Shown: piece by piece, positions 35,814-45,330 of the stretch
How positions within the stretch are numbered: the first letter of the stretch is position 1
Layout: each line of letters starts with the position of its first letter
Origin: Rhodoplanes tepidamans
Lineage (GTDB): Bacteria; Pseudomonadota; Alphaproteobacteria; Rhizobiales; Xanthobacteraceae
Length of the DNA: 64,000 nt
Assembly (NCBI RefSeq): GCF_030813915.1
Contig: NZ_JAUSUJ010000008.1
Coordinates: 62,001 to 126,000, forward strand
Reading direction: 5' to 3'
Program-made: the position numbers and the translations under genes
The notes under the pieces: model-generated
Databases searched by the model: none
The model's input: only the letters and a program-made list of their open reading frames with translations
What the model was told of the DNA's origin: nothing

Positions 35814-35988
35814 ACCACGGCGGCCGAGCCGCGGCCGGCGCCGAAACCGGAAAAACAATCGAACCGGAGTGGATCGTCGCGACACCAAAGGCCGCCGGGA
35901 CTTGAAACCGCCCGGCCGGTTGCGGGAACATGCCCGGGCGGGCGGTCGAAAGGCCCGCGGCGACAGCACGATCTCCCCGGAGCGTCCG

Positions 35989-38220
35989 ATGCGTCGGCTT
36001 CTCGCGATTCTCTCCGTCCTCGGTGCCGCGGCGCTCGCCGTCCCGGCCGCCGGGCTCGTCGGCTCCTCGCCCGCGCAGGCGCAGAGCCAGAAGGAATGGA
36101 ACGCCTGCCGCAGCGGCGATCTCGACAACCGGATCACCGGCTGCACCCGCATCATCGAGCGCCACGGCAAGCGGATGTCGGCCCGCGACCGGTCGTCCGC
36201 CTACAACAACCGTGCCTATGTCTACAACGAGAAGGGTCAGCACAGCCTCGCCATCAAGGATCTCGACGAGGCGCTGCGGGCCGACCCGACCAACTCGACC
36301 GCGTTCAACAATCGCGGCTTCGCCTTCAACGCCACCGGCAATCCGGACCGGGCGATCCGCGACTACGACGAGGCGCTGCGTCTCGATCCGAAGAACGCCA
36401 TCGCCTATGGCAACCGGGCCAACGCCTGGCGCAAGAAGGGCGAGCACGACAAGGCGCTGCGCGACTACGACGAGGCGATCCGCCTCAAGCCCGGCGGCGG
36501 CGACTACTTCAACGCCCGCGGCAACGTGTTCTTCGACCAGCGCAACTGGGACCGCGCCATCGCCGACTACGACGAGGCGATCCGGCTGTCGCCGAAGAAC
36601 GCCGTCTACTTCAACAATCGCGGCAACGCGTACCGCAACAAGAACGACTACGACAGGGCGCTGCGCGACCTCGGCGAGGCGCTGCGGCTGCAGCCGAACT
36701 ACGTCACGGCGCTGATCAACCGCGGCCACACCTACTACAACAAGTCGGACTGGGACCGCGCCATCGCCGACTACGACGAGGCGATCCGCCACGAGCCGCG
36801 CGCCAGCACCTTCAGCTATCGCGGCAACGCCTACCGCAGCCGCAACGATCCGGACCGCGCGCTGCGCGACTACGACGAGGCGATCCGCCTCGATCCGCGC
36901 TACACGGCGGCGTGGCAGAACCGCGCCCGCGTGCACGTCTCCCGCAGCGACTGGGACCGTGCCGTCGCCGACCTCGACGAGGCGATCCGGCTCGCGCCGC
37001 GCGACGCCGGAAGCTACAACTCGCGCGGCTACGCGCTGCGCCAGCGCGGCGACCTCGACCGCGCCATCGCGGATTTCGACGAGTCGATCCGGCTGGCGCC
37101 GCGCGACGCGGCCGTTCACGGCAATCGCGGCGAGGCGTGGCGGCTGAAGGGCGATCTCGACCGCGCGCTGGTCGATCTCGGCGAGGCGCTGCGCCTCGAT
37201 CCCGTGCTGATGCCGGCGCTGGTGAGCCGCGGCCTCGCCTTCGAGGCGCGCGGCGACGTCTCGCGCGCCCGCGACGACTTCAGGGCGGCGCTCGCGGCGC
37301 CGGCCCGCACCTATCTGAGCGGCCCGGCGGCCCTGCAGACCGCCCGACAGCACCTCGCCGCCATCGAGGCCGGGGGCCCGGCGACCCCTGCCCCGAGCCA
37401 GACCGCCCGGCCGGCTACGCCGCCGGCTGCGCTCCCTGCCGCGACCCCGTCGCCTCCGGCCGCCGCGGCCGTGGTGGCGCCACCCCCGCCGCCGCCCGCC
37501 GCCGCCGAGCCGCCCGCGGGCCGCGGCAGCCGCGTCGCCCTGGTGATCGGCAACGGCGCCTACCGCCACGCCACGCCGCTGCCCAATCCGGGCAACGACG
37601 CCCGCGACGTCGCCCGCTCGCTGCGCGGCCTCGGCTTCGACGTGGTCGAAGGCGTCGACCTCGACAAGTACGGCATGGAGGGGCGGATCCGCGAGTTCGG
37701 CAAGAAGCTCGACCGCGCCGACCTCGCCCTGTTCTTCTATGCGGGACACGGCCTGCAGGTCGCCGACAAGAACTACCTGGTGCCGGTCGACGCCAAGCTG
37801 GAGCGCCCCGGCGACCTCGCCCTCGACACCATCACGGTGGACGACGTGCTGGCCCAGATGGAGAGCGACCGCCGCGTCAACCTGGTGTTCCTCGACGCCT
37901 GCCGCGACAACCCGCTGGCCCGCTCGCTCGCCGCCTCGCTCGGCACCCGCTCGACCGCGGTCGGCTCGGGGCTCGCCGCGATCCAGAGCGCGGTCGGCAC
38001 CATGATCGTCTACGCCACCCAGCCGAAGAACGTCGCCCTGGACGGCGAGGGCCGCAACAGCCCGTTCACCACCGCCCTGCTCAAGCACATCGGCACGCCC
38101 GGACTGGAGATCGGTGCCGTGATGAAGCGGGTGCGGGCCGACGTGTGGTCCGCGACCCGCCAGCGCCAGCTCCCGTGGGACCATTCCTCCCTGATCGGCG
38201 ACGTGGTGCTGGCCCGTTGA
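35989..38220 (+). CDS. Exported TPR protein with a C-terminal caspase-like (C14) domain
   Basis: This 743-residue protein is predicted to be an exported cysteine peptidase on a TPR scaffold. The signal peptide (MRRLLAILSVLGAAALAVPA, cleavage after AQA near residue 32) sets the ATG at 35989; the frame is open 40 codons further up. Ten clear 34-residue TPR units plus a degenerate eleventh span about residues 65-445, each with a RAIxDYDEAIRLxP-like second helix. A Pro/Ala-rich linker (about 455-515) leads to the caspase domain starting SRVALVIGNGAYRHATPLPN. Catalytic His587 lies in FFYAGHGLQV and Cys638 in VFLDACRDNPL, the usual spacing of about 50 residues. It precedes the exoprotein gene by 238 bp. 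A protein-processing role is inferred. Confidence 0.88.
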   Translation: MRRLLAILSVLGAAALAVPAAGLVGSSPAQAQSQKEWNACRSGDLDNRITGCTRIIERHGKRMSARDRSSAYNNRAYVYNEKGQHSLAIKDLDEALRADPTNSTAFNNRGFAFNATGNPDRAIRDYDEALRLDPKNAIAYGNRANAWRKKGEHDKALRDYDEAIRLKPGGGDYFNARGNVFFDQRNWDRAIADYDEAIRLSPKNAVYFNNRGNAYRNKNDYDRALRDLGEALRLQPNYVTALINRGHTYYNKSDWDRAIADYDEAIRHEPRASTFSYRGNAYRSRNDPDRALRDYDEAIRLDPRYTAAWQNRARVHVSRSDWDRAVADLDEAIRLAPRDAGSYNSRGYALRQRGDLDRAIADFDESIRLAPRDAAVHGNRGEAWRLKGDLDRALVDLGEALRLDPVLMPALVSRGLAFEARGDVSRARDDFRAALAAPARTYLSGPAALQTARQHLAAIEAGGPATPAPSQTARPATPPAALPAATPSPPAAAAVVAPPPPPPAAAEPPAGRGSRVALVIGNGAYRHATPLPNPGNDARDVARSLRGLGFDVVEGVDLDKYGMEGRIREFGKKLDRADLALFFYAGHGLQVADKNYLVPVDAKLERPGDLALDTITVDDVLAQMESDRRVNLVFLDACRDNPLARSLAASLGTRSTAVGSGLAAIQSAVGTMIVYATQPKNVALDGEGRNSPFTTALLKHIGTPGLEIGAVMKRVRADVWSATRQRQLPWDHSSLIGDVVLAR

Positions 38221-38458: not shown

Positions 38459-41400
38459 ATGACCCGACGGACCGCCCGCTCTGCTCCGCTCCTCGCGCTG
38501 GCCGCGGCCGCGGCCGTAGCCGCGTGGCTGCCGGTGGCCGCCCTCGGCCAGTCGCTGCCGACCGGCGGCACGGTGACGAGCGGGACGATCGGCATCACCC
38601 AGCCGAACGGGTCCAGCCTGATCATCGACCAGTCGAGCCAGACCGGCATCATCAACTGGTCGACCTTCTCGATCGGCGCCGGCAATTCGGTGAGCTTCAA
38701 CAACGGCAGCGGCGCCACCCTCAACCGCGTCACCGGCAACGTGCCCTCGACCATCAACGGGCTCCTGTCGGCGACCGGCAGTGTCTTCCTGGTCAACCAG
38801 GCCGGCATCGCGGTCGGCGCGAGCGGGGTGATCCAGACCGGCGGCAGCTTCGTCGCCTCGACGCTCGACGTGAAGGACCAGGAGTTCCTGGCCCGCGGCA
38901 CGATGACGTTCGACGGCGCCTCGACGGCGGCGGTGGTCAATCTCGGCCGCATCGGCTCGTCGACCGGCGACGTCGTGCTGATCGCCCGCACGGTGCAGAA
39001 CGACGGCACCATCGAGGCGCCGCAGGGCACCGCCGCGATGGCCTCGGGCCGCGAGGTGGTGCTGAGCGACGGCGCGCTCGGCAACGGCAAGGTTCAGGTC
39101 AAGCTGCCGGGCGGCGACGGCAAGGTGGTCAACCGCGGCACCATCAAGGCGGCCGACGTCGAGCTGCGCGCCAACGGCGGCAGCGTCTACGCGCTCGCCG
39201 GCAACACCGACGGGGTGATCAAGGCGACCGGCATCGCCAGCAAGGGCGGCCGCATCTTCCTCACCGCCGAGGGCGGCTCGGTGACGGCGACGCAGCGCAT
39301 GGAGGCGCGTCGCACCACGACGAAGACCACCACGGTCCGCGGCAAGACGACGACCACCAGCACCACGTCGGGCGGCGACATCCTGATCGAGGCCGACGCC
39401 GTGACGATCGCGGCGGCGCTCGACGCCTCCGGCACCACCGGCGCCGGCGGCCGCATCGTGGTGACGGGCGGCACCGTGACGCTCGCCAGCGGCGCCCTGC
39501 TCGACGCCTCGGGCACGGCGGGCGGCACCGTGCTGGTCGGCGGCGACCGCGCCGGCGGCACCGGCACGACGAAATATTTCGACAAGCCGGTGCGCAACGC
39601 CGACCAGGTGACGGTCGAGGCCGGGGCGACGATCCGGGCCGACGGCAGCGCCGGCAAGGGCGGCAACATCGTCGTGTGGTCGGAGGGCACGACCACGGTC
39701 GCCGGCACGCTCTCGGCCACCGGCACGGCCGGCGGCGGCTTCGTCGAGACCTCGGGCAAGACCCTGCTGATCGAGGGCGCGTCGATCGATGCCGGCCAGG
39801 GCGGCACCTGGCTGCTGGATCCGGACCACCTCGACATCACCCAGAGCGTCGCCAACACGATCGTCGCGAGCCTGAACGCCGGCACCAACGTCGTCCAGGA
39901 GACCACGGCGGGCACCGGCGACGGCGACATCGTCGTCAAGGAAGGCGTGACCCTCGCCTGGAGCAGCAATGCGACGCTGACGCTCAGCGCCTATCGCCAC
40001 ATCGTGTTCGAGCCGAGCGTGGTGATCTCGAACTCGGGCGGCGGCAGCCTCGTGCTGCGCGCGGACAATACCGGCACGGGGACCGGGACGGTGACGTTCG
40101 TCCCGCCCGACACACAGACCCCGAACGCCATCCAGCTGCCCGCCGTGATCGACTTCTCCGGCAGCACCGGCCTCGTCTCGATCTATTACAGCACCACCGA
40201 CTACAGCAACCCGACCGACTTCTCGTCGAACGTTGTGACGAACCCGACGCTGCAGGTGCCGCAGCTGACCAGCTACATGCTGGTGAACAGCGCCGCCGAT
40301 CTGGCGCGGATCGACGACAGCGTGGACTCGCTCGCCGGCACCTACGCGCTCGGCCGCGACATCGACGCCACCGGCTTCGCCGGCATCGCGGGCAAGTTCG
40401 AGGGAACGCTCGACGGGTGGGGCGGACTCACGGCCGCGAACGGCAACCGGATCACCCACACGATCTCCAACCTGGGCGTCGGCACGACGAGCATGGGCCT
40501 GTTCTCGGAGATCGGCCTCCTCGGCCTGGTCCAGAACCTGAAGCTCGCCGGCGCGCAGATCACGACGGACGACTACGCGGCCGGCATCCTGGCAGCGACC
40601 AACAGCGGCACGGTCTACAACGTGCACGTCCAGGGAACGGTCACGGTCGGCGAATCCGCCTACTACGCCAGCGTCGGCGGCCTGGTCGGCGAGAATTACG
40701 GCTGGATCGTCCTGTCGAGCGCAGACACGGCGATCACGAGCAACGGCTGGAACACCAATGTCGGCGGCCTCGTCGGTCGCAACGAGGGCACGATCGCCTC
40801 GTCGGAGGCGCGCGGCACCATCACGGCAGGCCCGGACGCCTGGAGCGGCAATTACGGCGGCCTGGTCGGCTACAACTACGCCTCGATCTACGACTCCCGC
40901 GCCTATGGCGCAGTGACGGGCGCTGAATACTCGTCGACCGGCGGCCTCGCCGGCTACAACTCCTATGCCTACACGACCGGCCCCTACGAGGGTGGCGGCA
41001 CCATCGTGGGAAGCGGGGCGTTCGGCAACGTCACGGCAGGCCCGGACTCGCGCGTCGGCGGCCTGATCGGCAGAAACGACGGCCTCCTCGGCTATGCGAT
41101 CGCGACCGGCACCGTGGCGGGCGGCGCCGGCAGTGCCGTCGGCGGCGCGGTCGGCGAGAACGAAGGCTCGCTCTACCGGGTCTCGGCGACCGGCGCGGTC
41201 TCGACCACCGGCGAGTACGGCACCGCCGGCGGGCTCGTGGGCCTCAACGACTCCGGCAGCATCATTGAGTCCTACGCGACCGGCGCCGTCTTCGGCGACA
41301 GCGGCACCTCGATCGGCGGCCTCGTCGGCACCAACCTGCCGAGCTACTACGACGGCGGCGGCACGATTCTGCAGTCCTACGCGACCGGCGCCGTCACCGG

Positions 41401-43291
41401 CACCGGCACGGCGATCGCCGGCGGCCTGGTGGGGACCAATGCGGGGTACGTCGAGCAGACGTACTCGACCGGCCGGGTGACGACCGGGGCAGGCGGCATC
41501 GCCGGCGGCCTGATCGGCGTCAACAGCGCCGAGGTGACCGGCGACGGACCGAGCGAGCTCGTCACCGGTCAGGTCGAAAGCTCCTACTGGAACACCCAGA
41601 CCAGCGGGCAGAGCACCAGCGCGGCCGGCGTCGGGCTCACCACGGCGCAGCTCACCCAGGGGCTGCCGGCGGGCTTCGATCCCGACGTGTGGCAGACGGT
41701 CCCCGGGCAGAGCTATCCGTACCTGTTCGGGCCGCCGCCCTACGTTCCCTCCGATCCGGCGATCTACGATCCGGGCCAGCTGGTGAACCAGGTCTCGCTG
41801 ACGCCGGGCAACACCGGCTTCGGGCCGCCGAGCACCGACCAGAGCAACGTCACCCCGCCCCCGGCCGTGACCGAGAGCGGCGGCAACGGCGGCGGCCAAG
41901 GGGGTGGTCAGGGCGGTGGCGGACAGGGCGGCAATCCGGGCGCCGGCCCGCCGCCCGGCCCGGGGCTCGACCGGTCGCTGAGCGAGCAGCGCTTCAGCGG
42001 CGTGCCGCCGCTGAACGAGACCCGCTTCGTCCCCAACGAGATCGTGCTGCAGATCCCGGCCAGCGTGACGCGCGAGCAGGTGGACGCGATCGCCAAGGAG
42101 CTCGGCGTCGAGATCGTCGCGGCCGAGACCATCGGGCTGACCGGGCGCACCCTCTACCGGTTCCGGCTAAAGCCGGGCCAGGACATCCGTGCCCTGATCC
42201 GCCGGCTGGAGCAGAACCGCATCGTCTCCTCGGCGCAGCCGAACTACGTCTACGGCCTCGCCCAGGGGGCGCAGCCCGCCCCTGCGCCCGCTCCGGACGC
42301 GGGTGCCGCGTCCGGCGGCGATGCTCCTGCGGCGGGTGGACCTGAGCCGGCCGCCTCCGGCACCAGCGATCTCGCCAGCGACCTCGCCGCCCGCACCACG
42401 CTGCCGACCGGCGATCCGGCCCAGTACGTCATCCAGAAGCTCCATCTCGGCGACCTCCACAAGCGGGTGCGCGGCGCCAACGTCACGGTCGCGGTGATCG
42501 ATTCCGAGATCGACCTGCGCCATCCCGACCTGCAGGGGGTCGCAGCGGAGCGCTTCGACGCCACCGGCAGCCCGAGCCGCCCCCACACCCACGGCACCGG
42601 CATGGCCGGCGCCATCGCGTCGCGCTACCGCCTGCTCGGCGTCGCGCCAGGCGTGCGGCTGCTCGCCGTCCGGGCCTTCTCGGAGACCGACAAGAGCGCC
42701 GAGGCGACCACCACCCAGGTGCTCAAGGGCCTGGACTGGGCGATCGCCAGGAACCCGCGGATCATCAACATGAGCTTCGCCGGGCCGCGCGACCTGATGA
42801 CCGAGCGCCTGCTCGAGGCGGCGGCCAGGAAGGGCATCGTGCTGATCGCCGCCGCCGGCAATGCGGGGCCGAAGTCGCCGCCCCTCTACCCGGCGGCCGA
42901 CCCCAACGTGATCGCCGTCTCGGCCACCGACACCGACGACAAGCCGTTCGCCCAGGCGAACCGCGGCAAGCACATCGCCGTGGCGGCGCCCGGCGTCGAC
43001 GTGCTGGTGCCCTCGCCGGGCGGCGGCTACCAGCTGACCACCGGCACCTCGGTGGCGGCCGCCCATGTGAGCGGCATCGCCGCCCTGCTGATCGAGGCGC
43101 GGCCGAGCCTGACGCCGGCGGACGTGCGCAGCCTGCTGACCCGCACGGCCAAGCCGCTCGGGCCGGGCCGCGACGTGCAGGTCGGCGCCGGGCTGGTCGA
43201 TCCGGTCCGCTCGCTCGGCGGCATCATGCCGGCGACCGCGGCGCCGGCGCCGATCCGGCCGGGCGTGATGCCGGCCATGCCGCTGCGGTGA
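38459..43291 (+). CDS. Two-partner-secretion exoprotein fused to a subtilisin-like protease
   Basis: This is a 1610-residue secreted protein. The signal peptide is residues 1-31 ([20 protein letters not shown], then ...AALGQ). The TPS/haemagglutinin-activity domain (about 32-250) includes NQAGIAVGASGVIQTGGSF, equivalent to the NPNGI secretion region. A beta-helix follows, carrying a Thr/Lys-rich insert near residues 281-305. Ten GLUG-type repeats (GGLVGxN) occupy about 739-1022. After a Gly-rich linker comes a subtilase propeptide-like domain (about 1187-1265, RFVPNEIVLQIPASVTREQV). The S8 protease domain has catalytic Asp1348 (VAVIDSEID), His1378 (HTHGTGMAG), Asn1468 (AAAGNAGP) and Ser1531 (TTGTSVAAAHVSG). 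The ATG at 38459 has AGGA 8 nt upstream. Its transporter is the next gene. Confidence 0.9.
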   Translation: MTRRTARSAPLLALAAAAAVAAWLPVAALGQSLPTGGTVTSGTIGITQPNGSSLIIDQSSQTGIINWSTFSIGAGNSVSFNNGSGATLNRVTGNVPSTINGLLSATGSVFLVNQAGIAVGASGVIQTGGSFVASTLDVKDQEFLARGTMTFDGASTAAVVNLGRIGSSTGDVVLIARTVQNDGTIEAPQGTAAMASGREVVLSDGALGNGKVQVKLPGGDGKVVNRGTIKAADVELRANGGSVYALAGNTDGVIKATGIASKGGRIFLTAEGGSVTATQRMEARRTTTKTTTVRGKTTTTSTTSGGDILIEADAVTIAAALDASGTTGAGGRIVVTGGTVTLASGALLDASGTAGGTVLVGGDRAGGTGTTKYFDKPVRNADQVTVEAGATIRADGSAGKGGNIVVWSEGTTTVAGTLSATGTAGGGFVETSGKTLLIEGASIDAGQGGTWLLDPDHLDITQSVANTIVASLNAGTNVVQETTAGTGDGDIVVKEGVTLAWSSNATLTLSAYRHIVFEPSVVISNSGGGSLVLRADNTGTGTGTVTFVPPDTQTPNAIQLPAVIDFSGSTGLVSIYYSTTDYSNPTDFSSNVVTNPTLQVPQLTSYMLVNSAADLARIDDSVDSLAGTYALGRDIDATGFAGIAGKFEGTLDGWGGLTAANGNRITHTISNLGVGTTSMGLFSEIGLLGLVQNLKLAGAQITTDDYAAGILAATNSGTVYNVHVQGTVTVGESAYYASVGGLVGENYGWIVLSSADTAITSNGWNTNVGGLVGRNEGTIASSEARGTITAGPDAWSGNYGGLVGYNYASIYDSRAYGAVTGAEYSSTGGLAGYNSYAYTTGPYEGGGTIVGSGAFGNVTAGPDSRVGGLIGRNDGLLGYAIATGTVAGGAGSAVGGAVGENEGSLYRVSATGAVSTTGEYGTAGGLVGLNDSGSIIESYATGAVFGDSGTSIGGLVGTNLPSYYDGGGTILQSYATGAVTGTGTAIAGGLVGTNAGYVEQTYSTGRVTTGAGGIAGGLIGVNSAEVTGDGPSELVTGQVESSYWNTQTSGQSTSAAGVGLTTAQLTQGLPAGFDPDVWQTVPGQSYPYLFGPPPYVPSDPAIYDPGQLVNQVSLTPGNTGFGPPSTDQSNVTPPPAVTESGGNGGGQGGGQGGGGQGGNPGAGPPPGPGLDRSLSEQRFSGVPPLNETRFVPNEIVLQIPASVTREQVDAIAKELGVEIVAAETIGLTGRTLYRFRLKPGQDIRALIRRLEQNRIVSSAQPNYVYGLAQGAQPAPAPAPDAGAASGGDAPAAGGPEPAASGTSDLASDLAARTTLPTGDPAQYVIQKLHLGDLHKRVRGANVTVAVIDSEIDLRHPDLQGVAAERFDATGSPSRPHTHGTGMAGAIASRYRLLGVAPGVRLLAVRAFSETDKSAEATTTQVLKGLDWAIARNPRIINMSFAGPRDLMTERLLEAAARKGIVLIAAAGNAGPKSPPLYPAADPNVIAVSATDTDDKPFAQANRGKHIAVAAPGVDVLVPSPGGGYQLTTGTSVAAAHVSGIAALLIEARPSLTPADVRSLLTRTAKPLGPGRDVQVGAGLVDPVRSLGGIMPATAAPAPIRPGVMPAMPLR

Positions 43292-43488: not shown

Positions 43489-45330
43489 ATGTGTGAGGGG
43501 ACAGGAGCGCGAGCCGGCGGACCGCCGGCGCACGATCCGTCGCGGGCCGAGACCCGGCGGCGGACCTCGGTGCGCGTCCGGCCCGGCCATGCGCCGGCCA
43601 CGCTCGCTGCCCTGCTCGCCGGCCTCCTCGCCGCCGGGCCGGCCGCCGCCCAGTATGTCGAGCGCAACCTGCCCCCGGCCCCGCCGCAGCGGACCCCGTC
43701 GATCGGCTTCATCACGCCCGACCTCCTGAAGGGCGAGGACGACACCCCGCTCGGCGCCACCCTCTCGGGCATCGTGCTGCTCGGCGCCAAGGACACGCCG
43801 CTCGCGGCCCCGCGCCGCACCGGGGTCGACGTCGAGCGCATCCCGGCGGTCGACCCGGCCGCCCTGCGCACCCGCCTCGCGGCGTTCCTCGGCCGGCCGA
43901 TCAGCCGCAAGCTGATCGCCGAGGTGCAGGCCGCCATCTCGGGTGTCTACAAGGATGCCGGCCGCGCCTTCGTCTCGGTGACCATCCCGCCGCAGGAGAT
44001 CACCGGCGGCGCCCTGCAGGTGCGGGTGATCGAGTACAAGACCGGCCGCGTCTCGGTGACCGGGGCGGAGCGGGCCGGCACGGACCATGTGCGCACCCGG
44101 GTGCGGGTGACGCCGGGCGCCCCGATCGACAGCCGCCAGCTGGAGACCGACCTCGACTGGCTCAACCGCAACCCGTTCCGCCGCGTCGAGGCGGTGTTCG
44201 GCCCGGGCCGCGACCTCGCCGAGGCGGACCTGACGCTGCGCACCACCGAGCAGCCGCGGCCCTGGCAGGCCTATGTCGGCTACGCCAACACCGGCACGCT
44301 GCTGACCAGCCGCGACCGCTGGTTCGCCGGGGTGAGCGCCGCGCTGCCGGGCGAGGTCCTCGCCTCCTACCAGGCCACCGGCAGCCGCGACTGGTGGATC
44401 GACGACGGTCACCCGATCAACGACTCCGACCTCGCCAAGTACCAGAGCCACGCCGGCCGGGTGATCGTGCCGCTCTGGGCGCGGGCCAGCCTCGAGCTGA
44501 TCGGCAACTATATCCAGACCAACGAGCAGCCGAACCTCTATCTGCGCTACCGCACCCGGACGACCGAGTTCTCGGCGCTGCACCGCAGCGCCGTGCAGAA
44601 CGTGCTGCCCTGGGCGTTCGGCGACCTGCTGCTCGGCGTCGATACCAAGCACCAGACCCGCGAGCTGTTCTTCGTCGGCGTGCCGGTGGCCGATTTCGGC
44701 GTCGACGTGTTCCAGATGGTCGGCGGCTGGGCCGGCCGGTTCCGCGATCCGGTGGGCGTCAACGACCTCGACGTGCGGGTGAAGGTCAATCCGGGCCACA
44801 TGCTGCCCGACAACACCTCGCGGGCCTGGAGCCTCTATTCCAACGGCCGGGTGGACGACATCCACTACGCCTACGCGACCGTCGCCTACGTCCACACGAC
44901 GCCGCTGCCCAGGGACTTCGTCCTCACCAACGAGCTGTTCGGCCTGATCTCGGGCGAGCCGCTGCCCGACACCGAGCGCATCTCGCTCGGCGGCGCCTTC
45001 ACGGTGCGCGGCTACATGACCGAGGATCGCACCGTCGACCAGGCCGTGATCTCGCGCAACACGCTCTACCTGCCCGGCTACAGCTTCGGCGAGGCGCTGA
45101 AGCTGCCGTGGCTGAACGACAGGCTGGTGCCCTACCTGTTCTCCGACGTCGGCTGGGGCCGCGACATCTTCTACGGCATCGACACGACGCTCGCCTCGGT
45201 CGGCGCCGGCCTCGACGAGCAGATCGGCCCGTTCCGGGCCAATCTCGCCGCCGGATACGCCCTCACCGACGGCCCGCACACGCCGGCCGGCTCGTGGCGC
45301 ATCCATGCGCGCGTGACCGCCACCTACTGA
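43489..45330 (+). CDS. Outer-membrane transporter of the FhaC/ShlB (TpsB) family
   Basis: This protein is predicted to export the adjacent exoprotein across the outer membrane. The 613-residue reading has a signal-like hydrophobic stretch ATLAALLAGLLAAGPAAAQ. A POTRA region (about 120-195) includes RKLIAEVQAAISGVYKDAGR and FVSVTIPPQEITGGALQVRV. The ShlB barrel includes the conserved SLGGAFTVRGY loop (VRGY motif) and ends in an aromatic residue (HARVTATY). The start is uncertain: ATG 43489 leaves a long n-region, while an in-frame GTG at 43570 would give a standard signal peptide and 586 residues. A Pro-rich segment follows cleavage (NLPPAPPQRTP). Confidence 0.9.
   Translation: MCEGTGARAGGPPAHDPSRAETRRRTSVRVRPGHAPATLAALLAGLLAAGPAAAQYVERNLPPAPPQRTPSIGFITPDLLKGEDDTPLGATLSGIVLLGAKDTPLAAPRRTGVDVERIPAVDPAALRTRLAAFLGRPISRKLIAEVQAAISGVYKDAGRAFVSVTIPPQEITGGALQVRVIEYKTGRVSVTGAERAGTDHVRTRVRVTPGAPIDSRQLETDLDWLNRNPFRRVEAVFGPGRDLAEADLTLRTTEQPRPWQAYVGYANTGTLLTSRDRWFAGVSAALPGEVLASYQATGSRDWWIDDGHPINDSDLAKYQSHAGRVIVPLWARASLELIGNYIQTNEQPNLYLRYRTRTTEFSALHRSAVQNVLPWAFGDLLLGVDTKHQTRELFFVGVPVADFGVDVFQMVGGWAGRFRDPVGVNDLDVRVKVNPGHMLPDNTSRAWSLYSNGRVDDIHYAYATVAYVHTTPLPRDFVLTNELFGLISGEPLPDTERISLGGAFTVRGYMTEDRTVDQAVISRNTLYLPGYSFGEALKLPWLNDRLVPYLFSDVGWGRDIFYGIDTTLASVGAGLDEQIGPFRANLAAGYALTDGPHTPAGSWRIHARVTATY

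Follow-up and report, generated by a model that had tools for sequence, protein, structure and literature searches.

A two-partner-secretion exoprotein gene with a C-terminal subtilase in Rhodoplanes tepidamans and its relatives

The tpsA-S8 gene and its product

We analysed a 64,000-nucleotide stretch of DNA (hereafter the window) from Rhodoplanes tepidamans, an environmental purple bacterium, and in it the gene tpsA-S8, which encodes a two-partner-secretion (TPS) exoprotein with a pro-subtilase at its C-terminus. A preliminary description had read there a single frame with a signal peptide, a TPS domain, a beta-helical stalk, ten GLUG repeats, a linker, a subtilase prodomain and an S8 catalytic domain. 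Translation gave 1610 residues with zero internal stops, and a search of the full protein against Pfam and NCBIfam found the TPS domain, Glug repeats (E 4.7e-13), the prodomain (Fervidolysin_NPro-like, E 1.5e-4) and Peptidase_S8 (PF00082, E 3.7e-44), as had been described; the signal peptide was judged by eye (Table 1). The motif GG[LA][VIA]G.N was counted exactly ten times, all within residues 740-1022. The TPS domain matched EtpA with a phmmer E of 1.8e-32, its solved relatives being EtpA and HMW1. No trypsin family appeared in the Pfam and NCBIfam lists of the product, and the autotransporter barrel PF03797 was not found by Pfam. The composition of the Gly/Pro-rich linker was compared across the 16 fusions presented below.

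The four catalytic residues named in the preliminary description were all present in the expected motifs, DSEID at 1348, HGTG at 1378, AAGN from 1465 (Asn1468) and GTS from 1529 (Ser1531), and they lined up with the residues of subtilisin BPN'. Among the aligned S8 rows the Asp/His/Ser triad was identical in 122/122, a number in which duplicate loci make some genes appear twice, and the triad together with the oxyanion Asn was unchanged in 27/27 fused rows. Modelling of the propeptide and protease gave a good pro-subtilisin model, with a predicted local distance difference test score (pLDDT) of 89 and a predicted template modelling score (pTM) of 0.87, which superposed on uncleaved pro-subtilisins across both domains. 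The stalk was modelled as nearly all strand up to residue 1089 (mean pLDDT 78.7). At the level of sequence the TpsA chain carries a complete pro-subtilase as C-terminal cargo with the TpsB gene adjacent, as the preliminary description had claimed.

The S8 domain was the least changed part between species. Its nonsynonymous distances between the window and two Rhodoplanes relatives were the lowest (0.116 and 0.100); the TPS domain (0.139, 0.152) and the prodomain (0.196, 0.154) lay above it, and the helix and GLUG parts were highest (0.352-0.493).

Relatives, TpsA lineages and cargo exchange

Of the 475 relatives found, 80 genome loci were kept for analysis. The fused chain was present with TPS domain, prodomain and S8 domain in one frame in 16 frames from 16 genomes, the window included; in one of them (L069) the contig ends within the TPS domain. 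The count would be 18 with R. elegans and PH10 added, and L074 and L078, which start at a contig end inside the stalk, were excluded from it. The same full-length frame, stop to stop, was found in R. serenus (L063, the cultured strain DSM 18633; 1715 aa) and in a Rhodoplanes metagenome-assembled genome (L064, 1754 aa).

We looked for a frameshift or assembly join between the GLUG and protease parts, and for homologues in which the two parts are always separate genes; neither was seen. The third-position GC content stayed at 0.89-0.99 in all full 300-base blocks of the frame, also where the GLUG part meets the protease part, and because it was even across the whole frame there was no sign of a frameshift. 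Adjacent separate TPS and S8 frames occurred in 0 of the 80 kept loci, within the fetched DNA. An assembly or annotation artefact joining two genes could be suspected from two drafts of the same genus, R. elegans (G001, L066) and PH10 (G002, L068; deposited as Rhodovulum), in which the parts lie on different contigs. However, each of these fragments reaches its contig end inside the repeat stalk, and their flanks are syntenic: flanking the tpsA part is the caspase gene in G001 and ppk2 in G002, and flanking the protease part are tpsB and prfC. With one-frame homologues in 15 other genomes and even GC through the junction, the artefact was rejected and its probability is negligible.

Fusions were also looked for outside the window's family. 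Among the matches listed for 397 genomes of the order (E <=1e-60, with four candidates per genome scored), only the window's frame was longer than 1000 aa. For 385 genomes of the class, with two scored candidates each, no other frame among the matches listed fitted the fusion profile at both of its ends. Members of the window's family are few in both samples, which were not searched systematically for S8 subfamilies other than this one.

The fusions differ in gene order and in their secretion domains. The tpsB gene lies downstream of tpsA in all five Rhodoplanes loci and upstream in the 13 other fusions, here called lineage B; in 12 of these it is on the same contig, and for L069 it was read on the contig with the remainder of the split TPS domain (G080, L183). 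B-type and Rhodoplanes-type TPS domains share about 37-43% identity. A tree of 46 TPS domains placed the Rhodoplanes set in one group with five unfused TpsA frames (support 100/100) and separate from the B clade (98/97). A constraint uniting that set with the complete B clade, from which L069 was left out because its TPS domain is cut, lowered the log-likelihood by 56.4 and was rejected by the approximately unbiased test (p-AU 0.0056), and with it a single origin of the fusion on one TPS clade. Because the joint clade was rejected, these trees attach a single protease subfamily to two TpsA lineages, which have opposite orders of tpsA and tpsB. The TPS and S8 trees are silent on gain versus loss.

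We also analysed the protease domain, in a tree of 85 S8 domains (the 80 genome loci plus the window, L057, L173, L175 and L178), in which fused and free forms were interleaved. The clade of the window (100/99) comprised the five Rhodoplanes fusions, four free enzymes and L071, a fusion whose TPS domain and tpsB position are both of type B. Over residues 1-360, L071 shared 53-75% identity with the eight B forms in the comparison and 35-44% with the three Rhodoplanes forms. Rhodoplanes forms gave the best scores from residue 1641 onwards, with 82-87% versus 60-71% in the block from 1981, and the repeat-rich middle was undecided between the two types. With an N-terminal part of lineage B and a protease part of Rhodoplanes type, L071 is therefore, by its alignments, a chimera in which the switch lies somewhere in the stalk. 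A single clade of all fused S8 domains was rejected (p 0.0036), as was a single clade of the lineage-B fused rows (p 0.0048); these tests used 20 fused rows, including the contig-edge L066, L068, L074 and L078, of which L074 and L078 have no visible TPS end. Relatives thus seem to have swapped the protease module between different TpsA stalks by recombination.

The same subtilase subfamily was found in other settings. In the order the S8 module was present in 130 of 397 genomes, in frames of at most 914 aa, the window's excepted. Of the non-TPS loci (autotransporter forms included), 53 had 3 kb or more of upstream DNA, and an extracytoplasmic function (ECF) sigma factor lay there in 35 of them, versus 0 of 12 TPS-fused loci, the remaining 15 of the 80 loci having too little upstream DNA; free S8 loci behind an ECF sigma factor include L085, L098 and L131. 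In L111 a weak anti-sigma zinc-finger match adjoined the S8 gene. In Bradyrhizobium and kin the module lies within TIG-Big-S8-autotransporter chains (checked in L080, L091 and L101), and the genome of the window holds a free paralogue of 861 aa with a long Pro/Gly-rich N-terminus (L057). Since free, autotransporter and TPS-fused forms were all observed, one subtilase subfamily occurs as free enzyme, type Va passenger and type Vb cargo.

Stalks of lineage B also carry other domains. A B-type TPS domain, with at least 59% identity to the query, was found in 17 of 248 family genomes, with 18 places in all because the one in G080 is split; the remaining listed TPS places had at most 50%. S8 was on the frame in 13 of the 17, four of which (G081, G065, G208 and G082) were paired with the analysed loci via frame length alone. 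On a B-type stalk G090 has a Lipase_3 domain with a GHSLG motif and G181 a CHAP domain (E 5e-12), both in place of the subtilase. B-type tpsB adjoins the lipase and CHAP genes too and is cut by a contig end beside the latter. The B-type frame of G185 is interrupted by a contig end. In G015 a TPS-GLUG frame without protease (L176) was found and a free S8 on another contig (L178); since its tpsB is split over two frames (L176:4295-5987), by decay or sequencing error, this locus may be decaying.

Neighbourhood of tpsA-S8

The next gene after tpsA-S8, expected to encode the TpsB transporter, indeed carries the ShlB and POTRA_2 domains. It starts after a gap of 197 bases, and its position beside tpsA-S8 is conserved in four relatives of the same genus. 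Between 43280 and 43394 of the window, spanning the tpsA stop and the gap before tpsB, a near-palindromic 20-base unit is present four times (CCGCTGCGGTGACGCAGCGG and variants); the same array was not seen in the tpsA-tpsB gaps of relatives, where inspected. The gene order in Rhodoplanes is ppk2, the TPR-caspase gene, tpsA, tpsB and prfC. The caspase gene also lies upstream of tpsA in R. serenus and R. elegans and is doubled in the Rhodoplanes metagenome-assembled genome (L064); at the PH10 locus no copy was found. We examined the fetched flanks (<=1.5 kb) of 27 prfC loci, among them the five from Rhodoplanes; ppk2 was found in none, and so no empty site was seen.

Neither sigma-70 promoters nor terminators were found around the operon, where 0.3 and 1.9 were expected from shuffles. 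Two minus-strand frames downstream of tpsB had no Pfam match, and no candidate immunity gene was recognised near tpsA/tpsB. Immunity proteins are often dissimilar to each other. Elsewhere in the genome of the window (G000; contigs C23, C1 and C3; L038, L040-L043) we observed five further TPS-domain frames of 2511 to 4626 aa.

Table 1. Features of the tpsA-S8 locus and of two B-type loci with other cargo. Positions refer to the window unless a locus is named; residues are those of the tpsA-S8 product.
Feature	Position	Strand	Remarks
TPR and caspase-like protein	35869..38220	+	Peptidase_C14, E 3e-42; directly upstream of tpsA; exported-looking
tpsA-S8 gene	38459..43291	+	1610 residues; TPS exoprotein with C-terminal pro-subtilase
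Signal peptide	38459..38551	+	about residues 1-31; judged by eye
TPS secretion domain	38549..39271	+	residues 31-271; PF05860, E 9.9e-27; TIGR01901
Ten GLUG motifs	40676..41524	+	residues 740-1022; within stalk modelled almost all strand
Disordered Gly/Pro-rich linker and module start	41726..41998	+	residues 1090-1180; pLDDT <50 from residue 1090
Subtilisin prodomain	42011..42244	+	residues 1185-1262; PF22148, model and structural matches
Ala/Pro-rich stretch, prodomain to enzyme	42269..42400	+	residues 1271-1314; low pLDDT; presumed self-cleavage region
Peptidase_S8 domain	42473..43192	+	residues 1339-1578; D1348, H1378, N1468, S1531
tpsB, two-partner transporter	43489..45330	+	Pfam ShlB (1e-11), POTRA_2 (1.9e-8)
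B-type TpsA with weak class-3 lipase match at C-terminus	L174:5789-9916	-	subtilase replaced
B-type TpsA with CHAP domain at C-terminus	L177:7150-10833	-	subtilase replaced

Export, alternatives and known systems

We consider a two-partner-secreted stalk with exchangeable enzymatic cargo the best explanation, with a probability of roughly 60%. The tpsA-S8 product is very probably exported by TpsB and active as a protease, a prediction made because of what is known of these families. The chain would cross the inner membrane by Sec, and its TPS domain would dock on the POTRA domains of TpsB, after which the stalk would be threaded out and fold as a beta-helix. A passage of one review (PMC8151025) calls the direction in which TpsA chains emerge unclear. 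The pro-subtilase at the chain end would fold outside, with the prodomain as both helper and inhibitor. The enzyme may then cut itself off within the flexible stretch after the prodomain, so that stalk and prodomain would remain one piece and a catalytic part of about 290-340 residues would be released; we regard such self-release as somewhat more likely than not. The released enzyme would degrade extracellular protein or trim surface proteins, and general extracellular or surface proteolysis is a likelier role than that of a dedicated antibacterial toxin.

Several observations weigh against this explanation. The Pfam score of the prodomain was only slightly above its threshold (22.5 bits vs a cut-off of 21), the TM-scores of the stalk model to solved stalks were low, with EtpA as best match, and the modelled stretch between prodomain and enzyme was merely disordered, which is compatible with self-cleavage and no demonstration of it. 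The ratio of nonsynonymous to synonymous change (dN/dS, simple method) of the S8 domain was 0.28-0.30 and not extreme, and that of the short Ala/Pro stretch was as low (0.24-0.29); only the comparison between parts counts here, because high GC squeezes synonymous sites. When the chimera L071 was left out, one clade of lineage-B fused S8 domains was not rejected (p 0.079), and the Lipase_3 match was barely above cut-off.

The main rival, which we think doubtful, is a permanently tethered surface protease, held covalently or by its prodomain at the end of the stalk, that would act, as an SphB1 built into the chain, on neighbouring proteins or on the stalk that bears it. In subtilisins the prodomain is normally cleaved off by the enzyme itself, which here would free the enzyme from the stalk, and no C-terminal membrane anchor was seen by eye. 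The long stalk and flexible linker would on the other hand give a tethered enzyme reach, and the autotransporter subtilases SphB1 and NalP act on surface proteins according to passages of PMC5422565 and PMC9977779. Clearly less probable is an effector of the contact-dependent-inhibition type, whose C-terminal part would be delivered to neighbouring cells as an antibacterial toxin. C-terminal cargo exchange is described for TpsA and CdiA toxins in parts of PMC3848433 and PMC5422565, and a C-terminal exchange was observed here in L071; against this, the short gap and the two downstream frames offered no candidate immunity gene, the same enzyme subfamily occurs free and in autotransporters, and a prodomain is present as in secreted digestive subtilisins. 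For an inactive remnant, in which S8 serves only as a folding or capping domain, we found no supporting point, and the unchanged catalytic residues of the fused rows, the lowest nonsynonymous distance of all parts and the superposition on active pro-subtilisins make it very unlikely.

The exchangeable-cargo explanation can be extended, more tentatively and at somewhat less than even odds, to the Xanthobacteraceae-type GLUG-stalk TpsA as a general export platform. Recombination inside the repetitive stalk or directly behind it would exchange subtilase, class-3 lipase and CHAP domains among TpsA lineages and also with free enzymes; the subtilase would bring its own folding helper and release itself at the surface. 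If stalks do carry interchangeable enzymes, two-partner secretion in environmental bacteria would be a modular system of enzyme display or release, beyond adhesins, haemolysins and toxins. A prodomain-dependent enzyme ending a TpsA chain would make it possible to study at what point such cargo folds and what keeps it from doing damage while still in the cell. With one subtilase subfamily in three forms, nature itself offers a comparison of how the type V routes export the same enzyme.

Proteases exported by TPS (LepA), C-terminal exchange in TpsA toxins and subtilisins in autotransporters are already known from passages of PMC5422565, PMC6555100, PMC9977779 and PMC3848433. Searches of open-licence papers found no description of a prodomain-bearing subtilisin that serves as exchangeable C-terminal cargo of TPS stalks from two lineages.

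LepA is trypsin-like, whereas the tpsA-S8 cargo is an S8 subtilisin that ends a GLUG stalk with its own prodomain. LepA/LepB of Pseudomonas aeruginosa resembles our system in that a protease is exported by TPS; LepA is the sole protease in the TPS table passage of PMC5422565 and is classed as a type Vb protease in a passage of PMC6555100. SphB1, NalP and Ssp (type Va) are likewise subtilisins on a type V route, and relatives of the S8 subfamily lie in autotransporter chains (L080, L091 and L101); their barrel follows the protease in the same chain, whereas in tpsA-S8 the protease comes last and TpsB is separate. CdiA and the Neisseria TpsA toxins share the exchange of the stalk's C-terminal part by recombination, as a passage of PMC3848433 has it, and differ in that the tpsA-S8 cargo is a secreted-type hydrolase with prodomain and no immunity gene was recognised. 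FHA/FhaB and SphB1 of Bordetella also combine a TPS filament with a surface-acting subtilisin (a passage of PMC5422565), which there is a separate autotransporter and here part of the TpsA chain. Pro-subtilisin E, pro-Tk-subtilisin and fervidolysin match the module over both prodomain and S8 catalytic domain; unlike it, they are free secreted enzymes with no TPS stalk.
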